From NCBI GenBank assembly GCA_903827265.1, contig CAIKHN010000015.1:1-40778 (forward strand): a stretch of DNA of 40,778 nucleotides. Direction: 5' to 3'. Below, one piece after another: positions 9,689 through 27,854 of this stretch (its first letter is position 1; each line of letters starts with the position of its first letter). The stretch comes from Candidatus Uhrbacteria bacterium. GTDB lineage: Bacteria > Patescibacteriota > Patescibacteriia > UBA9934. A program made the translations under genes and the position numbers. Under the pieces are notes generated by a model. The model searched no databases. It saw nothing but the letters and a program-made list of their open reading frames with translations, and was not told the DNA's origin.

Positions 9689-9862
9689 TTATTCCTTCGG
9701 TGTTTCCTTTGGGATGCTTTCCGTGATGTACGAATAGCAGTGCGGACAACGATAGATCTCCTCGTTGTACCGAATCCCTTCGTATGTGTTGGTGCCGTTG
9801 CGAACGTACTTCATGCCTCGTTTACAGTTTGGACATTCCATATACTGAAAGTTTACTCCCAT
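9689..9862 (-). CDS. Small zinc-ribbon protein
   Basis: MGVNFQYMECPNCKRGMKYV...YRCPHCYSYI with two CxxC. Confidence 0.6.
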   Translation of the reverse strand: MGVNFQYMECPNCKRGMKYVRNGTNTYEGIRYNEEIYRCPHCYSYITESIPKETPKE

Positions 9863-10464
9863 TCCACGATGTCCGTCATCTTCGCCTCGATAGGGTCGGC
9901 AAGTCGAAGTCGTGCGATTTGGGATCGATTCAGCATTGGCGAGTGAGGAATCGAGACAAGATATTCGGGGATATACCAAATCGGTTCTTCGCTCGTTTCC
10001 CATTGTTGATTATTGAATCGCGAGAGATCGACAGGCTTTGAAAAGCTGCGCAACGTTTTCTTTCGATTCGACTGTAAAAAGTATTCGTGAAAGTAACTCA
10101 TTGCAAGTTCGCGGATCGATCGATAGATCGGTTCGCGATATCGGAGTACTCCGTGATTTGTTTTGGAAATTGCGCCCCAATATCCGTCAATTTGAAAGAC
10201 GGCGATGACGTGGTCTTGGTCCTGCGCCGTGGAGACGAGATCGACGATACGTGCCCGATAACCATGGAACTGAAGCGCTGCCGCTGCAAACATTGCGCCT
10301 TCAACACATTGTGCTTCCCGATGTCGCAAGACGAGTCGTGGTGAATAGCACGTTTCATTTTCGCCTATGATTCGGAATCGAAGTGTATTCAAGAAGTCTT
10401 GAATTTTCGCTGGAGTTGAAAGTGCCTTGAGAATGATGCGCTCCTCAGATGTCCATAATGGCAT
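9853..10464 (-). CDS. Transglutaminase-like domain protein
   Basis: REAQCVEGAMFAAAALQFHGYRARIVDL...DHVIAVFQIDGYWGAISKTNH: Cys, His, Asp-like arrangement. Confidence 0.6.
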   Translation of the reverse strand: MPLWTSEERIILKALSTPAKIQDFLNTLRFRIIGENETCYSPRLVLRHREAQCVEGAMFAAAALQFHGYRARIVDLVSTAQDQDHVIAVFQIDGYWGAISKTNHGVLRYREPIYRSIRELAMSYFHEYFLQSNRKKTLRSFSKPVDLSRFNNQQWETSEEPIWYIPEYLVSIPHSPMLNRSQIARLRLADPIEAKMTDIVEWE

Positions 10465-15509: not shown

Positions 15510-15583
15510 AGGGGCGTCGTATAATGGTAGTACAACGGTCTCCAAAACCGTTAGCGTGGGTTCGATTCCCCCCGCCCCTGCCA
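15510..15583 (+). tRNA. tRNA-Trp (anticodon CCA), CCA end encoded
   Basis: AGGGGCG/CGCCCCT acceptor stem, GTA...TAC D-stem, ACGGT-CTCCAAA-ACCGT anticodon arm, TTCGATT T-loop, G discriminator + CCA. Confidence 0.9.
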
Positions 15584-17140
15584 AGAGGAAATCACTGATG
15601 AAAAGTCGGTGATTTTTTCTTTATGTAAGCCATTATTTGGGGGTTCTAGCCGTTCTATATCTCTTTGAAGCTGATCATGTGCTTTTGCAAAGAGTTCCCA
15701 CATCTTTCCTAACTGGATATTGAGCTTTCCGTCTTTTAGAACAAAGTTCGAGCCAAGTCGTGTCATAACTTTTCGCTTCTCTTCAAGTGTTCCATTCTCG
15801 AACCAGTATGTTGCGTGTACAGCGAAATCAAAAGCCTCCTCAACCTTTTGCATCCAATTCTCTGCTCGTTGTTCTGTATCGCCCATTTTTTCTTTGAGCT
15901 GAGACTGTTCGGCTAACAGGTGCGTCTTTTGCTTAGAAAATTCTTCGTCCGTAATAAGGTCACGAAGACGAAGGTCCAAAAGCCTATCCAGCTTCGCCTG
16001 GACCTCGTTGTATGTCTTTTGGAGAGTGATATAGATTTGCGTCCGATCACCACTCTCCATTTGATTCACATCCTGCAATTGTTCGATCGCCCAGGAGACG
16101 AATGACTGAGGAATACTAATATTGTTCAAGGTCTCGGAAATCTGTGCCTCAATTTGTTTCACCGTCGAACACTTTTGGGAACATGCAATATTTTCTTTCT
16201 TCTTCGTACACCGATAGTAGATGTACCGTAGTCCAGATTTCTTCACTTTCTCTTCTGCGGTAATCATACAATCGCATTCTCCACATCGCATCAATCCAGT
16301 GAACGCGAACTCCTTCGTCTGGGGACGCGGAGCCGGATTTCCCAGAATACGTTGTGCCTGCCAAAATTCCTCTTCCGTAATCATTGGCTGATGACTGCCG
16401 TGATGATGGCCGCGCGTTCCTTCGGAAAGACGGTTGATGACACCGTAGTAAAAAGGGTTCTTGAAAAGACGGTAAATTGAACTCTGCGCGATCGGCTTTC
16501 CGCCCATGCGCTTTGTCTTTCGACTACGGAAGCCCCATTCTTTGTTTGCAACTTCTCGAATGCGCTGAGGTGAATATGCGCCCGTCAAAAGCAAGTCCCA
16601 CATCTTACGAACGAGATCGAAACGCTCTGAATCAGGAATAATTGTGTGATCATCAAGTTTATTGATGTATCCCAACGGCGCATTGCCCGGTAACCACCCC
16701 ATCTCCAGTTTCGTTTTATTGCCGCGTCGCACATTCTTCCCCAAATCGTCGATGTACTTCTGCGCCATGCCAAACTCAACATACATGAGGATGGTGTTGT
16801 CCTCCTCCGCCGAATAGCCTTGGCTCGGCGTAAAGATTCGTAAATTATTGCTCTTGATACACCAAATAATGCGGCCACCATCAACCGGATTGCGAGCGAG
16901 ACGGTCGAGCTTCCAGCATAGAATTCCGGCAACCTTTCCCGCTTCGACATCTTCCATGAGCTTGTTGAAAATCGGACGACCCGGGGCTTTGGCCGACATT
17001 GATTCATGCAACACGTATGCAACTTCAATGCCGTGGCGTGCAGCAACAGCCCTGAGTTCGTTGATCTGAGAATCGATGGAAAGCACTTGGCGATCTTCGG
17101 ATTCGGTAGACTTTCGAGCGTAGATGACAAATTTATTCAT
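15551..17140 (-). CDS. Large serine recombinase/integrase (resolvase + recombinase + zinc ribbon)
   Basis: MNKFVIYARKSTESEDRQVLSIDSQINEL...KLDRLARNPVDGG...GYINKL...FTGLMRCGECDCMITAE...YYRCTKK; 3' end lies inside tRNA-Trp. Confidence 0.95.
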   Translation of the reverse strand: MNKFVIYARKSTESEDRQVLSIDSQINELRAVAARHGIEVAYVLHESMSAKAPGRPIFNKLMEDVEAGKVAGILCWKLDRLARNPVDGGRIIWCIKSNNLRIFTPSQGYSAEEDNTILMYVEFGMAQKYIDDLGKNVRRGNKTKLEMGWLPGNAPLGYINKLDDHTIIPDSERFDLVRKMWDLLLTGAYSPQRIREVANKEWGFRSRKTKRMGGKPIAQSSIYRLFKNPFYYGVINRLSEGTRGHHHGSHQPMITEEEFWQAQRILGNPAPRPQTKEFAFTGLMRCGECDCMITAEEKVKKSGLRYIYYRCTKKKENIACSQKCSTVKQIEAQISETLNNISIPQSFVSWAIEQLQDVNQMESGDRTQIYITLQKTYNEVQAKLDRLLDLRLRDLITDEEFSKQKTHLLAEQSQLKEKMGDTEQRAENWMQKVEEAFDFAVHATYWFENGTLEEKRKVMTRLGSNFVLKDGKLNIQLGKMWELFAKAHDQLQRDIERLEPPNNGLHKEKITDFSSVISSWQGRGESNPR

Positions 17141-17152
17141 AAAAACCAAAAA

Positions 17153-17272
17153 GGCGGTTCTGACTACCCGACAGCAAGTATCACGAAGACACCGCTTATC
17201 GGCAGAACCGCCCAATTTGGGCGATAAGCAAAACAAAACGTGCCTTCGTTTTTCTGATAACTGTCGGGTAGT
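17153..17272 (-). promoter_or_regulatory. Structured leader of the recombinase gene (nested and crossing inverted repeats)
   Basis: ACTACCCGACAG 17163-17174 / CTGTCGGGTAGT 17261-17272; GCTTATCG/CGATAAGC; GGCGGTTCTG 17153-17162 / CAGAACCGCC 17203-17212, T-rich run on the minus strand after the last arm. Confidence 0.6.
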
Positions 17273-18296: not shown

Positions 18297-20486
18297 TTAC
18301 TTTTCACTACTGACTTCGCCAGGGCGCATATTGCGTAGACGAGTACAGTCTTCCGAACAGAACCAGTCGAATTCTTCTTTCAACGTCACAATCTTTTCCG
18401 GACGTCCTGGATCTCCAGTCTTTTCGTCCTGAACATTCACAATTCCAAGAATGCGGAAACTTTCGACTTCTTTGAGTGCGGTCGGGTTGCTACAACCGAT
18501 TGCCCACTCTGCAAGCTTCGTATTGATTGTTCCAGCTCCCTTGATCAGTCCCTCCATGAGCTTGATACGGTTGTACTGAGCCGAATTGAGCGTCACTTCA
18601 ATAATCGGCCACATATCCTCTTCTGTAAGCTGTAAACGACCGCAGATGAGCGCATGACCCCGTGCAAGGTTGTATAGGAGCTGATTGATACGGGTAGGCT
18701 TCTCGATAACGACGTTCGTGTGATGCTGTGTCTTCTCGCCGCCATCTTCATCAGACCAGACGTTGAGCGTTCCTCGCATATGAGCGAGAAGTTTTGCGCA
18801 GCGCGAAACGATGCGACGAAGCTCAGAAGGATCAGAACGCTTGTCCCAATTCACCCCACCGGGGTGCTTCGCCCAACGTGTCAAAAGCACATTCCGCGTT
18901 GCCGTGCGACACTCTCGCTCCTTACGCTTGAAGTCGTCCTGCACAAGAAGGTCTGCAAGCTCTTCCTCGCCTTTGTCACGAACGTTGAGGTTGAGGAAGA
19001 ACAGACGACTACCAAGATTTCCCATGAACTTCCAAACGCGCGGAGCGATTGGTGTTGATCCAGCAAGGAACATGAATGTGTAGTCTCCTCGATAGCCACG
19101 TTTGCCATGCACGCCAGAATCAGACTCATATCCTTCACCGTCAAACACTCGCGTCAGAACTCCAAGGTTCTTCAATAGATTTTCCTGACGTTCGGCGAAG
19201 ATTGGTGCCAGATCGCGCACAATCAACGTTCGGAAACGAATGCGCGGAAGCAGGTCAATCTTTTCGAGGTCCTCCTGTTTACGATTCGTCGCGTGGGATA
19301 CGAGCGAAGAAGGTGTAAAACTATCCGTCGAATACATGAGCTCATCCAACTCCGAAAAGAAGTTGAGCGTGATTGTCTTGCCAGCACTTGGAACATCAAC
19401 GAATACGAGTCCAAAAGGATTTCGAACGTCGTTGATAAGTAACTGACTCACAACTGATAATCCGACTTCTCCCGCACCAAGGCACTCTGGGAAACGTTCG
19501 CTAATCAACGATCGCCATTCATCGATACTCGTTTCTTTTTCCGGTTTGGGTAATGGAACATTGCGTTCTCCTTGCTCCTGTATCTCCCCCGAAGTTTTCC
19601 CAGTTTTGAGCAAAGCTCCGAAGTCATCAGGATTATTTTTCAACTTCACGAAGTAGTCAGTAACATCTCCTGCTTCACCAACGTCAGGAGGCAGTCGCAC
19701 GATCTTTGCAGAAGGCAACATTTTTCCAACACGCAGTGCTCCGCGTCTTCCAGCTTCATCGTTATCGTAAATGACATACAAGGACGTAATGTCTTTGAAA
19801 ATGTCGATCCACGTCTCTTCAAACGTTCCAGCTCCACCGGTCGATGACACTGCCGCGATGCCGTTTGAATGGAGAACGAGAGCATCCAGCTCCCCCTCAC
19901 AGATCACCGCCATACTCGCTCCTTGAAGCGACTCAATGCCGTATAACGCGGCTTTGGCACCTTTTGGGTAAAGATACTTCGGTTCACTTTCAGAATCAGG
20001 TAGAGCGCGACGTTTTGCGAAGAGCCATGTGCCTTTGCCATCCGAAACTGGAACCGTCAGACGTTCGCCGTCAAAGCCCAGTCTTGCGACATCAACAATG
20101 CTCGTCGCGATACCGCGTTCATTCGTAAGCCATGATCGGAGGTGCTCTGGTAACGCGACGTGCCATTTTTCAACATCTTCCGCGGAAAGACCAGCAGCAA
20201 TTTCCTTGGCCTTCTTTTTCACGACACGACCAATCTTCTCAGGACCCTCTTTGAATCCAAGTTCAACCGGATCATCTCCGAGATGTCTGGATAGTGTTAC
20301 GAGATTTCCGGAAGCATCACACTTCACACAGCGATACACTCCAGTTTCGGCCTCCATGTAGAGATGCCCTGCGTGTTTTGTATCAACATCGCAACCACCG
20401 AATGGACACTTGAATACAAGTTCCTTTCCGCGTTCTACGAAACTAATACTGCGTGATCCAAGGTAATCTTTTGCATTCATGTTCAT
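18297..20486 (-). CDS. Toprim primase fused to an ATPase/helicase-like region
   Basis: N-terminal zinc-binding region (CPFGGCDVDTKHAGHLY...YRCVKCDASGN), Toprim AVICEGELDALVLHSNGI...YVIYDNDEAGRRGA, P-loop-like DVPSAGKTIT. Confidence 0.85.
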   Translation of the reverse strand: MNMNAKDYLGSRSISFVERGKELVFKCPFGGCDVDTKHAGHLYMEAETGVYRCVKCDASGNLVTLSRHLGDDPVELGFKEGPEKIGRVVKKKAKEIAAGLSAEDVEKWHVALPEHLRSWLTNERGIATSIVDVARLGFDGERLTVPVSDGKGTWLFAKRRALPDSESEPKYLYPKGAKAALYGIESLQGASMAVICEGELDALVLHSNGIAAVSSTGGAGTFEETWIDIFKDITSLYVIYDNDEAGRRGALRVGKMLPSAKIVRLPPDVGEAGDVTDYFVKLKNNPDDFGALLKTGKTSGEIQEQGERNVPLPKPEKETSIDEWRSLISERFPECLGAGEVGLSVVSQLLINDVRNPFGLVFVDVPSAGKTITLNFFSELDELMYSTDSFTPSSLVSHATNRKQEDLEKIDLLPRIRFRTLIVRDLAPIFAERQENLLKNLGVLTRVFDGEGYESDSGVHGKRGYRGDYTFMFLAGSTPIAPRVWKFMGNLGSRLFFLNLNVRDKGEEELADLLVQDDFKRKERECRTATRNVLLTRWAKHPGGVNWDKRSDPSELRRIVSRCAKLLAHMRGTLNVWSDEDGGEKTQHHTNVVIEKPTRINQLLYNLARGHALICGRLQLTEEDMWPIIEVTLNSAQYNRIKLMEGLIKGAGTINTKLAEWAIGCSNPTALKEVESFRILGIVNVQDEKTGDPGRPEKIVTLKEEFDWFCSEDCTRLRNMRPGEVSSEK

Positions 20487-20535
20487 ACGGGGTAGTTGGA
20501 GGGGCATCCGAATAACCGGATGCCCCAATCGACAT

Positions 20536-20922
20536 TTATTCGAGCTTTACTGGAAAGAAATCGACGACTTTCGCGAATGTCTTTCCAGCTTTCGAAGTCG
20601 CCTCTTTTACGACTACACAAACTGTTTTCCCAATGAGATAACTCACATCGAAACCATCGCGACGCTCCACTTCGTTCAACGGCCGAGCAAGCACGGCTTC
20701 CGTAAACGGTTTGAGATGTCCTTTCGGGTGTAGAACAGGACTTGTCCAAAATCGCGCCGTAGGATGAACACCATCAATTTCGTCGATGGATTCAAGCTCA
20801 ATCATGAGCTTCGCGCGTTCTGGGTCGTTGAGATCGGTAGTCTCTTCAATGTTTTTCACTCTCACCGAGTGCATGCCGCTGGGCAAATAACGTGATCGTG
20901 ACTCGTGAACGATGATTGCCAT
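20536..20922 (-). CDS. Hypothetical element protein (single-stranded DNA-binding-like context)
   Basis: MAIIVHESRSRYLPSGMHSVRVKNIEETTDLNDPERAKLMIELE..., upstream neighbour of primase. Confidence 0.5.
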   Translation of the reverse strand: MAIIVHESRSRYLPSGMHSVRVKNIEETTDLNDPERAKLMIELESIDEIDGVHPTARFWTSPVLHPKGHLKPFTEAVLARPLNEVERRDGFDVSYLIGKTVCVVVKEATSKAGKTFAKVVDFFPVKLE

Positions 20923-21504: not shown

Positions 21505-22755
21505 CTACTCAACGACTCGCTTTATATGCTTATTTCCGTGATCAATGAAGAAAAAATCGTCTACTCCAAATGTTGAGTGAATCTTCTGATTCAGTGCGCG
21601 GGCGGCGTCATAAATAGAGCGAAAATTATCAATATCCACGCTCGCCCCATCAATACGTGTTCCCACCGACTCCGTGAAAGCGAATCGAAGGAGTGCAAAT
21701 TGAATCTCATCCTCTTTGAAGATTTCCGTTCCATCGAAAGCGTCTCGAAACAAGACGCCATGAGTGGGGTCAAAATGGAAATGGGGATTCGCAAATGTAA
21801 CCTTCGGGGTCGTGGGGGTCGGGACAGATGGAGGCGGTTTTGGCAAAAATGCTTCAGGCTTCAACACTCGAACCTGGGTTTCAATGTTGCAAAAATTATC
21901 CGGATCTCTAGCCGTAACAACCGTCTTTGGGTACCTGATCACAACGGGATCATTCAGTTTCTTGATTACGATTACACCCTCATTTTCAAGAGCGAGTAAG
22001 GCTTCGACATATCGCACCTTAAAAGCTGGCTCTGGCTTTCTCGGCCAAATTTCATCCTCATTCAAGACGAGATTATTGGGCGACAGTCCAGCATTCAATT
22101 TCAAACCAATTTTTTCAAAAATATATCTCTTGTGCATTGCATAGGAAAACAGATCTATACCCTGAGAATCAAGCTCATCGTTTGCAAACTTTTTAGCGTA
22201 ACCCGCCAAGAAATCCCTTAGCCCTTGTGTTTCGATCTTCAAATCAAAAAAGATATAAGAAGTCGGGTTTATTGGAGATTTAGCAATCAATTGCGAAACC
22301 TCGGGCAACGAAAGTGGGAGAAAGTCATCGACAACGAGACGGGTGTGACGGTCGATCCCGAGAAAACAATCATCCGCGTATCTCGCATGAACCCCTGCTA
22401 TCCTTTGCTGAATTTCAGCACGTGCGCCAGACGAAACAACCCCAAGACCAGCAATGCGGCTCAAATGATCCTTTCTCTCTCTTTGAAACGCTTCGTCAAA
22501 ACCACGGCTGATTCGAATATTGCCGAGATCGATAAGTCCCTTATTAGCAAGATCGAGCAATCCGTTGAAGTGAAGAGAGAAAAGACGTCGTAGCGTCGAG
22601 AAGCCTTGCTTTTCTTGGCTCTCAACAGTCCCGCCGTTCAATAACAAAACACGCGCGGTATAGGCGGCATCAGATTGAAATATTTCGTCGTTCGCATCAG
22701 GCACACCATTTTCATTCTCATTTGTATTGAATACAGAATAACCCTTTCGTGGCAT
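21505..22755 (-). CDS. Uncharacterised 416-aa two-domain protein with Pro-rich linker
   Basis: Long ORF; linker LPKPPPSVPTPTTPKV separates an N-terminal region from a C-terminal possible winged-helix. Confidence 0.65.
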   Translation of the reverse strand: MPRKGYSVFNTNENENGVPDANDEIFQSDAAYTARVLLLNGGTVESQEKQGFSTLRRLFSLHFNGLLDLANKGLIDLGNIRISRGFDEAFQRERKDHLSRIAGLGVVSSGARAEIQQRIAGVHARYADDCFLGIDRHTRLVVDDFLPLSLPEVSQLIAKSPINPTSYIFFDLKIETQGLRDFLAGYAKKFANDELDSQGIDLFSYAMHKRYIFEKIGLKLNAGLSPNNLVLNEDEIWPRKPEPAFKVRYVEALLALENEGVIVIKKLNDPVVIRYPKTVVTARDPDNFCNIETQVRVLKPEAFLPKPPPSVPTPTTPKVTFANPHFHFDPTHGVLFRDAFDGTEIFKEDEIQFALLRFAFTESVGTRIDGASVDIDNFRSIYDAARALNQKIHSTFGVDDFFFIDHGNKHIKRVVE

Positions 22756-22781: not shown

Positions 22782-22811
22782 TTGCCTATAACCACCTTCA
22801 TGCGTCATAAT
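22782..22811 (+). promoter_or_regulatory. Putative promoter of the RNA leader/R-M operon
   Basis: TTGCCT-N18-CATAAT; predicted start about 22818. Confidence 0.5.
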
Positions 22812-22817
22812 TGTTTC

Positions 22818-22960
22818 GTCTAGCTCCAAATACAACAAACAACAAGACGCTCGCTGCGTTTTGAGGGTCATTTGATGCGCCAGTTTGGGCATCCCTCAAC
22901 AAGCAGCAGTGACCCTGTTGTTTGGGGCTAGACACCTGAGGGGTGTCCTTTTGTTTTTAC
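22818..22960 (+). ncRNA. Candidate structured RNA / leader upstream of the m5C methyltransferase
   Basis: GTCTAGCTCCA/TGGGGCTAGAC plus AAACAAC/GTTGTTT closing helices, internal hairpins AAGACGC/GCGTTTT and TTGAGG...CCTCAA, ends at a terminator-like hairpin. Confidence 0.5.
22931..22960 (+). terminator. Intrinsic terminator-like hairpin inside the R-M leader
   Basis: GACACC-TGAGG-GGTGTC followed by CTTTTGTTTTT. Confidence 0.65.
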
Positions 22961-23015
22961 AGAAGCCCTCGCTGTAAACGCGGGTCGTCTAGCCCCCGCG
23001 TTCGTTCAAAAAACT

Positions 23016-23990
23016 ATGAAGAGAGTGACAATCGGGTCGCTTTTCGCCGGATGTGGCGGAATGGATTTGGGATTCTTGCAGGAGGGTTTTTCCATACGAT
23101 GGGCGAACGATTTTGATCACTGGGCATGCGAAACGTACAAAAAGAATTTCGGTCCGCATATTATCGAAGATGATGTCGCGAAGCTGAATTTCGAAAAACT
23201 CGCGTCGTGCGACGTGATGCTCGGCGGCTTCCCGTGTCAGGATTTTTCAATGATTTCAAAAAGAAAGGGTCTTGGTACGGTGCGCGGGAATCTGTATCGT
23301 CATTTTGTAAAAGCAGTTGTTACCAAGAAACCGAAAATCTTCATCGCGGAAAACGTCAAAGGACTCATTACGGCAAACGAGGGGAAAGCTATACGACAAA
23401 TTACCGAAGATTTCACGCAAGCCGGATACCGCTTACAGGTTCATCTCGTGAACTTCGCGAATTATGGCGCTCCTCAATTACGCGAGCGAGTTCTTATTAT
23501 TGGGATTCGCAACGACCTCAAAAAAGAGTTCATCATGCCCGCTCCGACACACAGCAAGAGCACATGGGTTGGAGCACAACGCGCGCTCAAAGGCGTAGAA
23601 AAAGCACTCTATAACAATGAGCCCCTCAACATACGGCCGGAAACGATTGAAAAACTCAAACTCATTCCTCCCGGTGGAAACTTTTCAAGCATCCCCAAGA
23701 ATTCAAAGCATTACGTCAAAGGGATGATCAGTCACGTCTATCGTCGGTTGCATCCCGACATGCCGTCTTCGACCATTATCGCCGGGGGAGGTGGCGGAAC
23801 GTGGGGCTACCACTACGATGAACCAAGACCGCTCACAAACAGAGAGCGAGCACGTCTTTTTGGCTATCCGGATGATTTTATTTTCGAAGGTTCTACGGCG
23901 GAGGTTCGTCGCCAAATCGGCAACTCGGTTCCTCCGGTAGCAATTCGTGTTGTAGCGAAAGCAATCAAAAAATTCCTTGAAAAGAAATAA
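23016..23990 (+). CDS. DNA (cytosine-5-)-methyltransferase
   Basis: IGSLFAGCGGMDLGFLQEGF, GGFPCQDFSM, IAENVKGL, QLRERVLIIGIR, RERARLFGYPDDF, RQIGNSVPP. Confidence 0.96.
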   Translation: MKRVTIGSLFAGCGGMDLGFLQEGFSIRWANDFDHWACETYKKNFGPHIIEDDVAKLNFEKLASCDVMLGGFPCQDFSMISKRKGLGTVRGNLYRHFVKAVVTKKPKIFIAENVKGLITANEGKAIRQITEDFTQAGYRLQVHLVNFANYGAPQLRERVLIIGIRNDLKKEFIMPAPTHSKSTWVGAQRALKGVEKALYNNEPLNIRPETIEKLKLIPPGGNFSSIPKNSKHYVKGMISHVYRRLHPDMPSSTIIAGGGGGTWGYHYDEPRPLTNRERARLFGYPDDFIFEGSTAEVRRQIGNSVPPVAIRVVAKAIKKFLEKK

Positions 23991-23994
23991 CGAT

Positions 23995-25050
23995 ATGGAA
24001 CTCATTTATTCCAGCGTTATTCCGGTTCAATATCCTGACGTTTCGAATTTTCAAAAAACGTTTGAACGTCAGCTTGTCGCATCTGGGGAAATAAAAATCG
24101 CAACGGGATATGTATCCGAAGATTCCCTCATGGAATTGAAATCAATTTTCGCCCACTACAAAAAGAGCGCTACGCCGAAAGCCTGCGATCTGATTATTGG
24201 GATGCACGGCCGAGAAGGATTCACACGGCCTCAGTACGAAGCAGCGTGCTCACTAGGCCAATTTCTCAGCGACAATCGTATCGGCTGTGTGCGCGTTTGT
24301 ACCGCATTCAAATTCCACGGAAAGGTTTACTCATTCCTAAAGAATCAGCTCCCCCACGCATCAATCGTTGGATCGTCCAACATATCCAACATTCTCGGCC
24401 TCGGTGCGCAGTGGGAAGTGGACACATTGATTACGGAAACGCAGAAAATCACAGATCTCATCGGGCTTCATGAAGACATTGCACGAAAAACAACAAAACC
24501 AATTCTCGAATATACAGACGTAAAATTCATCGATCGCCAAGACCTTCTTGAAGGCTGTAGCAATGTCGAAAAAGTCAGTCATCAAGAACTCGACCGGGCC
24601 AAGCATTCAGTAACTGGTCTCACATTTGATATTCCTCTCAAAGCCGAAGCCAGAAGTAATCTCAATGCACATTTTGGAAAAGGACGAGAAGCCCCAACGG
24701 GACTCATACGATCACGCCCCTGGTACGAAGTGGAAGTTATTGTGCCACTCGCAATCACCACGTTGTCAGGTTATCCGCCAATCGGAGAAACATTCACTGT
24801 TTATACCGATGATGGATGGTCATTCAAGTGCAAGGTCAATGGACAGAACAGCAAGAATCTTCGTTCGGAAGGCGATCTTCAAATTTTGGGTAGATGGATC
24901 AAGGGACGAATGGAAGATGCTCGGGTGCTGAAAGTTGGAGAACTCGTCACCGCAGAAATGCTCCAACACTACGGAACAAATCACCTCAAACTCTCAGCAA
25001 CAAATGATCCGAGGCTTTGGCTTTTGGATTTCTCACCCAAAAAGATATGA
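23995..25050 (+). CDS. NgoFVII-like PLD-fold restriction endonuclease
   Basis: FKFHGKVYSFLKNQ...ASIVGSSNIS single HxK PLD motif; 4 bp after the MTase stop. Confidence 0.8.
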   Translation: MELIYSSVIPVQYPDVSNFQKTFERQLVASGEIKIATGYVSEDSLMELKSIFAHYKKSATPKACDLIIGMHGREGFTRPQYEAACSLGQFLSDNRIGCVRVCTAFKFHGKVYSFLKNQLPHASIVGSSNISNILGLGAQWEVDTLITETQKITDLIGLHEDIARKTTKPILEYTDVKFIDRQDLLEGCSNVEKVSHQELDRAKHSVTGLTFDIPLKAEARSNLNAHFGKGREAPTGLIRSRPWYEVEVIVPLAITTLSGYPPIGETFTVYTDDGWSFKCKVNGQNSKNLRSEGDLQILGRWIKGRMEDARVLKVGELVTAEMLQHYGTNHLKLSATNDPRLWLLDFSPKKI

Positions 25051-26954
25051 GCTATCTCGAAACATATATTGAACGCGCCGAGGCGAGCACCAAAGGAACA
25101 GCCGTTGCCCTCAGACAATCTGCCGAAGACTTTGCGAATAAGTACATCGCAAACTTCAACTTCAATGAACACATTTCGGGACTACTCTTTGGACATGTTC
25201 AAAGTGGAAAGACGGGACAAATGTTCGCTATCGCTTCGGCTGCCGCTGATGCTGGCTTTCGTCTCTTCATCCTCGTGACGACCGACAATATCCGACTTCA
25301 ACAACAAACACTTGATCGAGCCAAAAAACTGCTCGGCGGATTCATGGATGGGTTTCGTGTGCTCAATGAAACAGACGATGCTGCCTTCCTCGTTCCACCA
25401 AGTGCGAACAATCCAACGATCATCGTATTGAAAAAGAATGTTCGTGTTTTGAGACATTGGGCTGATCACATTTCTGCGAGTAAGTATTTCCGTGATAGTC
25501 CGATATTCGTACTTGACGACGAGGGGGATGCTTCAAGCCTCAACACAAAGGTAAACATCCCTGATAAAAGTGCAATCCATGAATTGCTTGAACGAATTCG
25601 AAAACAAGAACCTTCAAGTTTCTATCTTCACGTTACGGCAACGCCACAGTCGTTACTGCTCCAAGCGGAAGAATCTGGTTGGCGACCTGGATTTGCCCAC
25701 TATATCGCTCCGGGGAAAGGATATCTTGGGGGAGATCTCTTTTACGGAGAAGAAACTACTTCCATCCGTATTACACCAGACGATGAAAAGAACACGCTTT
25801 TGAAAAGTGACGATATTCCCGAAGGACTACGCAAGGCCGTTTTGTCTTTTCTTATTACCGGAGCGCATAGTCTTCTGACAGGAGATCGTACTGTTTGTAG
25901 CTTGCTCATTCATCCCGGGATACAAATCAAAGAGCACAATCAGACCAAAGAAAAAGTTGAACGATTCCTCTGCGGTGTGCGAGAAGACCTCACAAACGAA
26001 TCGCCAACGTTCCTTTGTAACCTTCAAGACGCATGGAGCGATCTTGCAACGACAAAACCCGATCTCAGTAGCATGGATCAAATAAAGGCATTCCTGCTCA
26101 ATGGACTCCCCCAAATCAATGTCATCGTCATGAACTCCAAAACAATTGATGGAGTTCGATACGACTCCGGACTCAACGTTTTGGTTGGCGGAAACAGTTT
26201 GGGTCGAGGAGTAACATTCCCCGGACTTCACACTGTTTACTACTGTCGCAGTTCAAAAACTCCCCAAGCGGATACGTGCTGGCAGCACGCCCGTATTTTC
26301 GGCTACGACCGTGATGCAGGACTTTGTCGCATCTTCACGCCAGAACCCCTTGCAAAGCTGTTCAGAGAGCTCAACGACGCAAACAACGCCCTATTCTCTG
26401 TCCTCCGTGAGAAGGGACCGGATGGTGTTCACGTTCTGACTCCTGCGGGGACACGTCCAACGCGAATGAATATTCTCAAAACAGATGAACTGGCTATTCT
26501 TGCAGGTGGCGTCAATTACTTCCCGTCAGCCGCTAAGGAAAGCAATCTCAGCGCACTTGATGACATCCTGGGGGAGATAGACGCCGACCGCCCTTCTACT
26601 GCCGAAGAAATCATAAGGATTCTGCAATTGATCCAAGTGGAAAAGGGCGATCCATGGATCAGCCACAATTTTCCTGGCTGTGTCATGGCCCAAGAACAAT
26701 CCGGTAAGAAGCAATCTTTCCGCCTTATTGTGAGAACGGATCGAAGCATCAAAAAAGGGATGAGAACGTTGCTCTCCCCAGATGATCGAGAGTTGGGCAA
26801 AGAACACAACGATAAAACAGTTTTGACGATGTACAGACTACGAGGCGAAGCAGAGAAAGGATGGAGCGGTAGTCCTCTTTGGGTTCCCAACATCAAACTC
26901 GCCGATGGCATGTGTATCTTCCTGAGTTCAAAGGAACTTTTGCCGATATTCTAA
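25047..26954 (+). CDS. Z1 domain ATPase/helicase-like protein
   Basis: LLFGHVQSGKTGQMFAIASAAADAGFRLFILVTTDN Walker A; FVLDDEGD Walker B; HVTATPQSLLLQ; NVLVGGNSLGRGVTFPGLHTVYYCR; ATGA overlap with the PLD gene. Confidence 0.85.
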   Translation: MSYLETYIERAEASTKGTAVALRQSAEDFANKYIANFNFNEHISGLLFGHVQSGKTGQMFAIASAAADAGFRLFILVTTDNIRLQQQTLDRAKKLLGGFMDGFRVLNETDDAAFLVPPSANNPTIIVLKKNVRVLRHWADHISASKYFRDSPIFVLDDEGDASSLNTKVNIPDKSAIHELLERIRKQEPSSFYLHVTATPQSLLLQAEESGWRPGFAHYIAPGKGYLGGDLFYGEETTSIRITPDDEKNTLLKSDDIPEGLRKAVLSFLITGAHSLLTGDRTVCSLLIHPGIQIKEHNQTKEKVERFLCGVREDLTNESPTFLCNLQDAWSDLATTKPDLSSMDQIKAFLLNGLPQINVIVMNSKTIDGVRYDSGLNVLVGGNSLGRGVTFPGLHTVYYCRSSKTPQADTCWQHARIFGYDRDAGLCRIFTPEPLAKLFRELNDANNALFSVLREKGPDGVHVLTPAGTRPTRMNILKTDELAILAGGVNYFPSAAKESNLSALDDILGEIDADRPSTAEEIIRILQLIQVEKGDPWISHNFPGCVMAQEQSGKKQSFRLIVRTDRSIKKGMRTLLSPDDRELGKEHNDKTVLTMYRLRGEAEKGWSGSPLWVPNIKLADGMCIFLSSKELLPIF

Positions 26955-27019
26955 TCCGAAATTCGAGAAGAGCGTTTTCAAAGCGAATCAGGCTCTGCGT
27001 TGTGGTACCCGTCTTAAAA

Positions 27020-27062
27020 AAGCGAAACGCACCCGGAGGCGGCACGTTTGCCGCGCGGGTGC
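27020..27062 (-). terminator. Intrinsic terminator of the lipoprotein gene
   Basis: Minus strand CGCACCCG...CGGGTGCG with inner TGCCGC/GGCGGCA, then TTTCGCTTTTTT. Confidence 0.75.
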
Positions 27063-27070
27063 GCAAGATG

Positions 27071-27775
27071 TCACTCGGGCATGATGGTGAAGAAGCCTTC
27101 GGCCGTGGATTCACCGGAAGTGCCATTGGACGCCGTCCACGTGACGACCGCGAACACACGCATCAGGTCGGCGTTGGCGTCGTGCAGATCGGCGATCTCG
27201 GCCATCATTTCGTCTTCAGAGAAGAACGCCATGGTGAAGCCGAAGTCGATGGACGTGACGCTGTCAGCCGTGAGCGCGGAGCTGGTGGTGTCGATCACCC
27301 ACTCATTGCTGCAGTAGGTGTTCCCATCCGTGTACGAACCGCAGAAGTTGTCGTACCGCGTGTACACGCCGATGTGCTGGTCGGCCGTCCCGACACCCAG
27401 ACGGGTGTCACCGATCGTGGTTGGCCACGCCGCGTTGGCCGCTCCGATGAAGACATCGAGTTCGGTCACGGTGTAGGTGACGCCAAGATCGTTGGTGTGC
27501 GTGAGGAGGTGGGGCAGGACGACGCTGTCGAGCGTCACAGTTTCACTGGCCACGACCCACTCGGCGATGAAGCCGGAGGGTTCGACGACCGGCGTGCCGG
27601 TGTCGGTCTCCTGAGCGGTGTCGGTGTCGACCACGCCAGTGTCGTCCATGTTCTCGGCCGTGTCGGACTGGGCGCTGTCCTCGAGGTTGGGTTCGGCGGT
27701 GTTGCCGGACTTCTCTTCGGGGATCGCACGACAGCCGACGGTGAGAACGAGGACGATGAGCAGATTGGAACGCAT
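27071..27775 (-). CDS. Secreted putative lipoprotein with Asp/Thr-rich linker
   Basis: MRSNLLIVLVLTVGC lipobox-like; DTDTAQETDTGTPVVEP linker; GC-rich. Confidence 0.75.
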   Translation of the reverse strand: MRSNLLIVLVLTVGCRAIPEEKSGNTAEPNLEDSAQSDTAENMDDTGVVDTDTAQETDTGTPVVEPSGFIAEWVVASETVTLDSVVLPHLLTHTNDLGVTYTVTELDVFIGAANAAWPTTIGDTRLGVGTADQHIGVYTRYDNFCGSYTDGNTYCSNEWVIDTTSSALTADSVTSIDFGFTMAFFSEDEMMAEIADLHDANADLMRVFAVVTWTASNGTSGESTAEGFFTIMPE

Positions 27776-27814
27776 GGGGGAACTCCAGTGTGTTGGGACA
27801 GTGGGCGGAAATGC

Positions 27815-27854
27815 CCGTCTATTGGCACCACTTTGTAGTGATGGCTATAGACGG
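27815..27854 (-). promoter_or_regulatory. Two-tier hairpin in the lipoprotein gene 5' UTR
   Basis: CCGTCTAT-AGC-CATCAC-TACAAA-GTGGTG-CCA-ATAGACGG on minus strand. Confidence 0.55.

Follow-up and report, generated by a model that had tools for sequence, protein, structure and literature searches.

Considering that a folded leader stands before a restriction-modification (R-M) operon in the 40,778-nt stretch of Candidatus Uhrbacteria DNA analysed here (the window; genome 0.95 Mb, 100% complete), the question is whether this RNA governs the R-M genes or belongs to something else. The operon encodes, all on the plus strand, an M.NgoFVII-like C5 cytosine methyltransferase (MTase; 23016-23990), an NgoFVII-type restriction endonuclease with PLD and B3-like domains (23977-25050) and a Z1-domain type II helicase protein (25017-26954). 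After the Z1 gene, an ORF on the same strand (26879-27838) has no match in Pfam, PHROGs or PADLOC, and a 234-aa minus-strand ORF (27071-27775) overlaps it. A sequence-only reading had proposed a switch-like RNA that leads into the R-M genes and may control them, and every sequence that it listed was found at its position when the window was checked.

The structured leader RNA occupies 22818-22958 of the plus strand (about 141 nt, U-tract end included). It is closed by a helix, P1, whose 5' arm GTCTAGCTCCAAATA (22818-22832) pairs with the 3' arm TGTTTGGGGCTAGAC (22919-22933); the sequence check placed GTCTAGCTCCA from 22818 onwards, TGGGGCTAGAC at 22923-22933 and the pair CAAACAAC/GTTGTTTG at 22836-22843/22917-22924. 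Folding gives a hairpin at the P2 position, AAGACGC-TCGCT-GCGTTTT (22844-22862; arms 22844-22850/22856-22862). Segment X, TTGAGGGTCATT (22861-22872), is common to two exclusive helices: a local one with segment Y, CCCTCAA at 22893-22899 (X-Y, TTGAGGG/CCCTCAA, 22861-22867/22893-22899), and a long-range one with segment Z, AGTGACCCT at 22908-22916 (X-Z, AGGGTCATT/AGTGACCCT, 22864-22872/22908-22916). The apical loop motif GATGCGCC...GGGCATC (22874-22893) holds a conserved GCG...GGCA and the pairing GATGC/GCATC (22874-22878/22889-22893), while the linker AACAAGCAGCA (22898-22908) contains an AACA that is invariant in an 18-sequence alignment. The final GAC of P1 also opens the intrinsic terminator, GACACC-TGAGG-GGTGTC followed by CTTTTGTTTTT (22931-22958; stem 22931-22936/22942-22947). 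Two extra hairpins and a third copy, GTCTAGCCCC (22987-22996), lie in the window-specific segment 22956-23002, and the pairings TTTACAG/CTGTAAA and AACGCGGG/CCCGCGTT were confirmed in the window sequence.

The 213 nt from 22818 to 23030 fold with -81.7 kcal/mol, where shuffled sequences average -60.5 (z = -4.75); none of 200 dinucleotide shuffles was as stable. The opposite strand also folds strongly (z = -4.25), so stability by itself does not settle the strand; the promoter, the U-tract and the downstream ATG, all kept in relatives, indicate that the plus strand is the one read. Within the window the two core states are nearly isoenergetic, about 1 kcal/mol apart: P1 with X-Y and P1 with X-Z reach -56.9 and -57.9 kcal/mol without the terminator, and -55.1 and -56.1 kcal/mol with it.

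Relatives of the R-M operon include some with 68% identity in other small-genome bacteria, and in the upstream regions read among the 80 best MTase relatives (mainly the closest) the leader was not found. For these loci, a different feature was observed. The sequence GCSGC, presumably the recognition sequence of the NgoFVII family, occurs within 180 nt upstream of the methylase in the closest relatives 22 times, against 4.3 expected; it is present in 12 of 18 selected loci (L023, L024, L025, L026, L028, L029, L042, L046, L049, L053, L064 and L104) versus 2 of 66 others, the 18 having been chosen after the motif was seen. It often takes the form TAGCGGCTTTTT preceding TATAAT, near the promoter. 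This suggests, as a lead, that the closest R-M relatives are controlled via the enzyme's own site, by methylation or binding. No GCSGC lies upstream of the methylase in the window, which is consistent with expression there now depending on the leader of a mobile element.

Such an element extends to the left of the leader. First comes a gene for a divergent 416-aa protein of unknown function and family (21505-22755, minus strand), whose matches, in two other genomes, are confined to its last 70-85 residues; then two small proteins, an SSB-like protein (20536-20922, minus strand) and a DNA primase/helicase-like protein (18297-20528, minus strand). Further on are the gene for a 197-aa protein and that for a large serine recombinase, or integrase (15551-17236, minus strand). 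The C-terminus of the recombinase, ..GRGESNPR, was seen to end inside the plus-strand tRNA-Trp gene (15510-15583) at the element end; because the recombinase gene ends within it, this tRNA gene is likely the attachment site. A search with the primase through 384 genomes of the same class found related elements, three of which (L128, L129 and L130) conserve the recombinase, the 197-aa protein, the primase and the same tRNA-Trp. Between their leftward replication operon and rightward cargo, which is unrelated to R-M, these three have an RNA of similar build, in which the P1 arms and a core precede GACACC...GGTGTC and a U-tract. In another related element (L134) the same place (9840-9960) holds a different leader, with three hairpins inside AAGCTCTCCGCTT/AAGCGGGGAGCTT and then a U-tract.

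A covariance model of the three elements (R1), made without the window sequence, recovered window positions 22818-22964 with 33.1 bits (E 5.3e-5 in 237 kb; E 2.1e-4 on the window's own genome), and did not match the leader of L134 at 9840-9960. R1 found matches in 16 of the 384 same-class genomes, among them a second copy in the window's genome (C3:58214-58356, 88 bits). With a type-1 model (R2) the window reached 38.3 bits, and members turned up in three genomes that belong to other classes of the phylum; a type-2 model that included the window (R3) added members within the order, one of them in the window's own family. Two IMG/VR contigs carry the RNA, and additional scans of IMG/VR for the terminator pattern added none. 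Reverse-strand matches were disregarded as mirror images of near-palindromic copies, and one doubtful locus (L174, 28.5 bits) was excluded, having no same-strand gene after it. Several hundred genomes and IMG/VR thus yielded 27 usable members, with RNAs of 124-157 nt and the core closed by P1. Two diverged members from other classes of the phylum (L200:8874-8998 and L201:8674-8803) keep P1, the terminator and the ATG layout around a different core, and are perhaps a third subtype. A sequence-only search within the family returned the window alone, and phage and plasmid records gave no match to the window or to a strong type-1 member. Neither the window nor any of 17 related loci had a relevant match in Rfam 15 at gathering or permissive thresholds, in line with the sequence-only reading, which a known Rfam class would have refuted, and no published description was found in the open-access literature. 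By comparison, the window leader is a single member of a strongly conserved family of folded RNAs that had not been described before.

The company that these RNAs keep argues that they belong to serine-recombinase elements or prophages, rather than being R-M regulators as such. Matches to the window recombinase lie near 14 of the 26 other members (a count uncorrected for how common such recombinases are in general), and phage terminase genes lie near three (L173, L176 and L177); IMG/VR held no relatives of the 416-aa protein or the primase. The first or second genes after the leader were surveyed as cargo. They include R-M systems of type II (window), type III (L163) and type IIG-like (L199), an Avs1b-like NACHT gene (L162), GmrSD/HEC-06 (L175 and L177, type 1), GmrSD_N/HEC-05 (L202, type 2), PDC-S11-like genes (L167 and L203) and trypsin-like genes (L164 and L170); several others are zinc-ribbon, membrane or lipoprotein-like. 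About one-third of the cargo consists of recognisable or candidate defence genes, and cargo types such as GmrSD, PDC-S11-like and trypsin-like are common to both RNA subtypes. L162 is the second copy in the window's genome (L162:9915-10057, minus strand); it lies near a serine recombinase and a tRNA-Asp, and the genes after it encode a zinc-ribbon protein and an Avs1b-like NACHT protein of 1970 aa that contains a Cap4-type nuclease domain. The downstream genes share no common pathway, and the cargo is too varied to indicate a single metabolite. The idea of an R-M leader was given up, since relatives of the R-M operon lack the RNA in the upstream regions read, whereas related mobile elements have it before unrelated cargo; sensing of SAM or of an R-M-specific signal is likewise unsupported, as the RNA precedes varied non-R-M cargo. 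The RNA is carried instead by prophages and integrated mobile elements in bacteria with small genomes.

The arrangement around the RNA points to leader geometry, with promoter, RNA and downstream ATG in order. The window promoter has its -35 box TTGCCT at 22782-22787 and its -10 box CATAAT at 22806-22811 (plus strand, 18-nt spacer). Counting the first base of P1 as +1, relatives align at 22818 and 22 of the 27 members have a -10 hexamer at -12 to -7, that is, 6 nt before the first paired base, which upholds the proposed start; a -35 hexamer at -35 is present in 12 of 27. All 27 members have an intrinsic terminator, and in all 27 its stem is followed after 11-99 nt (median gap about 36) by an ATG on the same strand that begins a frame of 80 codons or more, compared with 24% of random intergenic points. 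The expectation of a structured leader closed by a terminator shortly before a gene was therefore borne out throughout the family, and promoter, leader and intrinsic terminator before a same-strand gene are the arrangement of a transcription attenuator. The terminator stem is 94% paired and nearly invariant in type 1; in L171 and L200 it reads GACAACC/GGTTGTC. Its 5' arm overlaps the end of P1 by only about 3 nt (GAC). In L167 and L177 a compensatory change preserves P1 and disrupts the corresponding terminator pair, so competition between the P1 base and the terminator is not strictly conserved.

The sequence-only reading had staked its case on covariation among homologues, and covariation is present. 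Among 17 type-1 sequences P1 is 95.7% paired, with compensatory double changes in 8 of 14 pairs, and the six inner pairs of X-Z are 100% paired, five with double changes (variants include GGAUAG/CUAUCC, GGAUCG/CGAUCC, GGAAAG/CUUUCC and CGGUUG/CAACCG). None of 500 shuffles reproduced the covariation of P1 and X-Z, and with slid partners as a control pairing fell to 20-50%. X-Y, which shares the nucleotides of X with X-Z, is 87% paired, and the P4 loop GCAC/GUGC 100%; G-U pairs occur in P1 and P4. A hairpin at the P2 position is present in most members and was left out of the covariation count. In an alignment-free permutation test, the X of each of 25 members was compared with its own Y and Z and with those of other members, L200 and L201 being omitted for their diverged core motif (the architecture is retained). 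Across all 25, none of 5000 permutations was as good for X-Z, X-Y or P1; within types the counts were 0/5000 in both type 1 and type 2 for X-Z, and 1/5000 in type 1 and 2/5000 in type 2 for X-Y, all these statistics ignoring kinship. In L204, Y and Z have both changed along with X (CUGGAU with AUCCAG and CUAUCCAG). Two helices that share nucleotides and both covary form the three-way pattern expected of a switch, and such a pattern indicates two alternative structures under selection. X-Z could also be constitutive, forming a pseudoknot with the P4 loop, and X-Y a folding intermediate.

The earlier claim of mutually exclusive pairings therefore holds in kind, with a different pair. The pairing then proposed, 22924-22933 with 22987-22996, is a real 10-nt complement in the window; in every other member, downstream complements to the 3' arm of P1 do not exceed 7 nt. 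The conserved alternative is AGGGTCATT/AGTGACCCT, which had not been listed and competes with TTGAGGG/CCCTCAA. The window-specific hairpins and third GTCTAGCCCC copy adjoin the MTase start; being positioned after the terminator, they would not be expected to act on the termination decision, and they could affect translation instead.

Taken together, these features make it probable that the RNA is a conserved cis-acting transcription attenuator that gates the cargo of integrative elements and prophages. Transcription would begin at base 1 of P1; as the RNA emerges, P1 would close and the core would take either X-Y or X-Z. Just before the cargo ATG lies the terminator, whose 5' arm has GAC in common with the 3' end of P1, so the folding state may weaken or permit the terminator and thereby set the amount of polymerase reading into the cargo. 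Comparison among members supports the promoter position, P1, X-Z, X-Y, the terminator, the downstream gene and the mobile-element link on which this scheme builds. Exclusive X-Y/X-Z pairing and an adjoining terminator are observed in members, and the sequences do not reveal how the two would be coupled; that the alternatives change termination in vivo, and the sign of that effect, we infer. A metabolite, a protein, an RNA or the state of the polymerase may set the choice. A further-reaching possibility, which we hold only tentatively, is a new class of RNA sensor, by which mobile elements and prophages would hold cargo, often immune genes, behind a terminator until a signal, for example infection, excision or entry into a new host, releases it.

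The main rival, somewhat unlikely in our judgement, is processive antitermination by RNA alone, as with HK022 put or Tn916 canT: once folded, the nascent RNA would bind polymerase and carry it, ligand-free, past the adjacent and later terminators. Mobile elements and phages do use such RNAs (PMC9378689, PMC11658703), a site past the promoter and ahead of a terminator in an element operon fits, and the near-invariant unpaired AACA linker and the GCG..GGCA motif would suit a protein-binding surface. However, put consists of about 70 nt in two stem-loops, canT is several hundred nt long, neither has a sequence or Rfam link to the leader, and a terminator in every copy with two covarying exclusive pairings suits a switch better. 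We regard as improbable a stand-alone trans-acting small RNA of about 140 nt, with cargo read by leak-through or from another promoter. A promoter of its own in most copies, a strong terminator in all and a long compact hairpin speak for it; the same-strand gene directly after 27 of 27 copies (24% expected) does not, nor do gaps of 11-30 nt, which leave little space for a second promoter. The same downstream gene makes a small RNA acting on the leader, as once suggested, less likely. That the hairpin acts as DNA, an origin of replication or recombination site at the divergence point of the element, with its RNA features incidental, is scarcely credible: it does sit between replication operon and cargo and both strands fold, but P1 and P4 use G-U pairs, the promoter and terminator signals belong to one strand, several members are not located at such modules, and the integron core GTTRRRY is absent.

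The origin idea, which came from the primase and SSB neighbours, was dropped on the strand-specific signals and G-U pairs. An integron attC site was rejected (core GTTRRRY/RYYYAAC absent, arms GTCTAGC/GCTAGAC, recombinase of the large serine type), as was a retron msr-msd, a Pfam scan of flanking genes having given no RT domain match; weak PADLOC matches of the primase to RT-associated DnaG-like profiles are limited to its Toprim part.

Returning to the attenuator, a guess at a single locus has become a defined RNA family with testable structure, carried by the mobile elements of a bacterial group whose members are largely uncultivated, and the RNA is a sequence handle for locating such cargo loci. 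Should it control read-through, the RNA would act as a modular gate before interchangeable defence and membrane cargo, and a mobile element could in this way, with no controller protein, time the expression of restriction enzymes and other risky genes. If the sensor reading is true, defence expression would hinge on an RNA switch.

Among known systems, EcoRI and Eco29kI also have RNA near a type II R-M system, namely antisense RNAs inside the R-M genes that control them (review PMC3874152); the present leader, in contrast, is sense-strand, brought by a mobile element and common to unrelated cargo. The putRNA of HK022 is phage-borne, about 70 nt in two stem-loops, located just after the promoter and linked to read-through (PMC9378689). 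The leader is likewise a nascent RNA right after a promoter on a phage or mobile element, but departs from the put type in its length of about 140 nt and in having P1, a long-range helix that covaries and a terminator of its own attached. The canT of Tn916 is an element-encoded cis-acting RNA that influences termination, several hundred nt long, without a defined conserved structure and preceding transfer genes (PMC11658703); it shares with the leader a termination-related position on an integrative element, whereas no terminator-coupled switch is described for canT. In architecture the leader resembles riboswitches and attenuators with an intrinsic terminator, which have the same 5' leader, P1-closed conserved core with covariation, exclusive pairings and terminator before the start codon. 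The leader differs from them in that it matches no Rfam class, its downstream genes have no metabolic theme, its P1 and terminator overlap by about 3 nt, and it is tied to the cargo of mobile elements.
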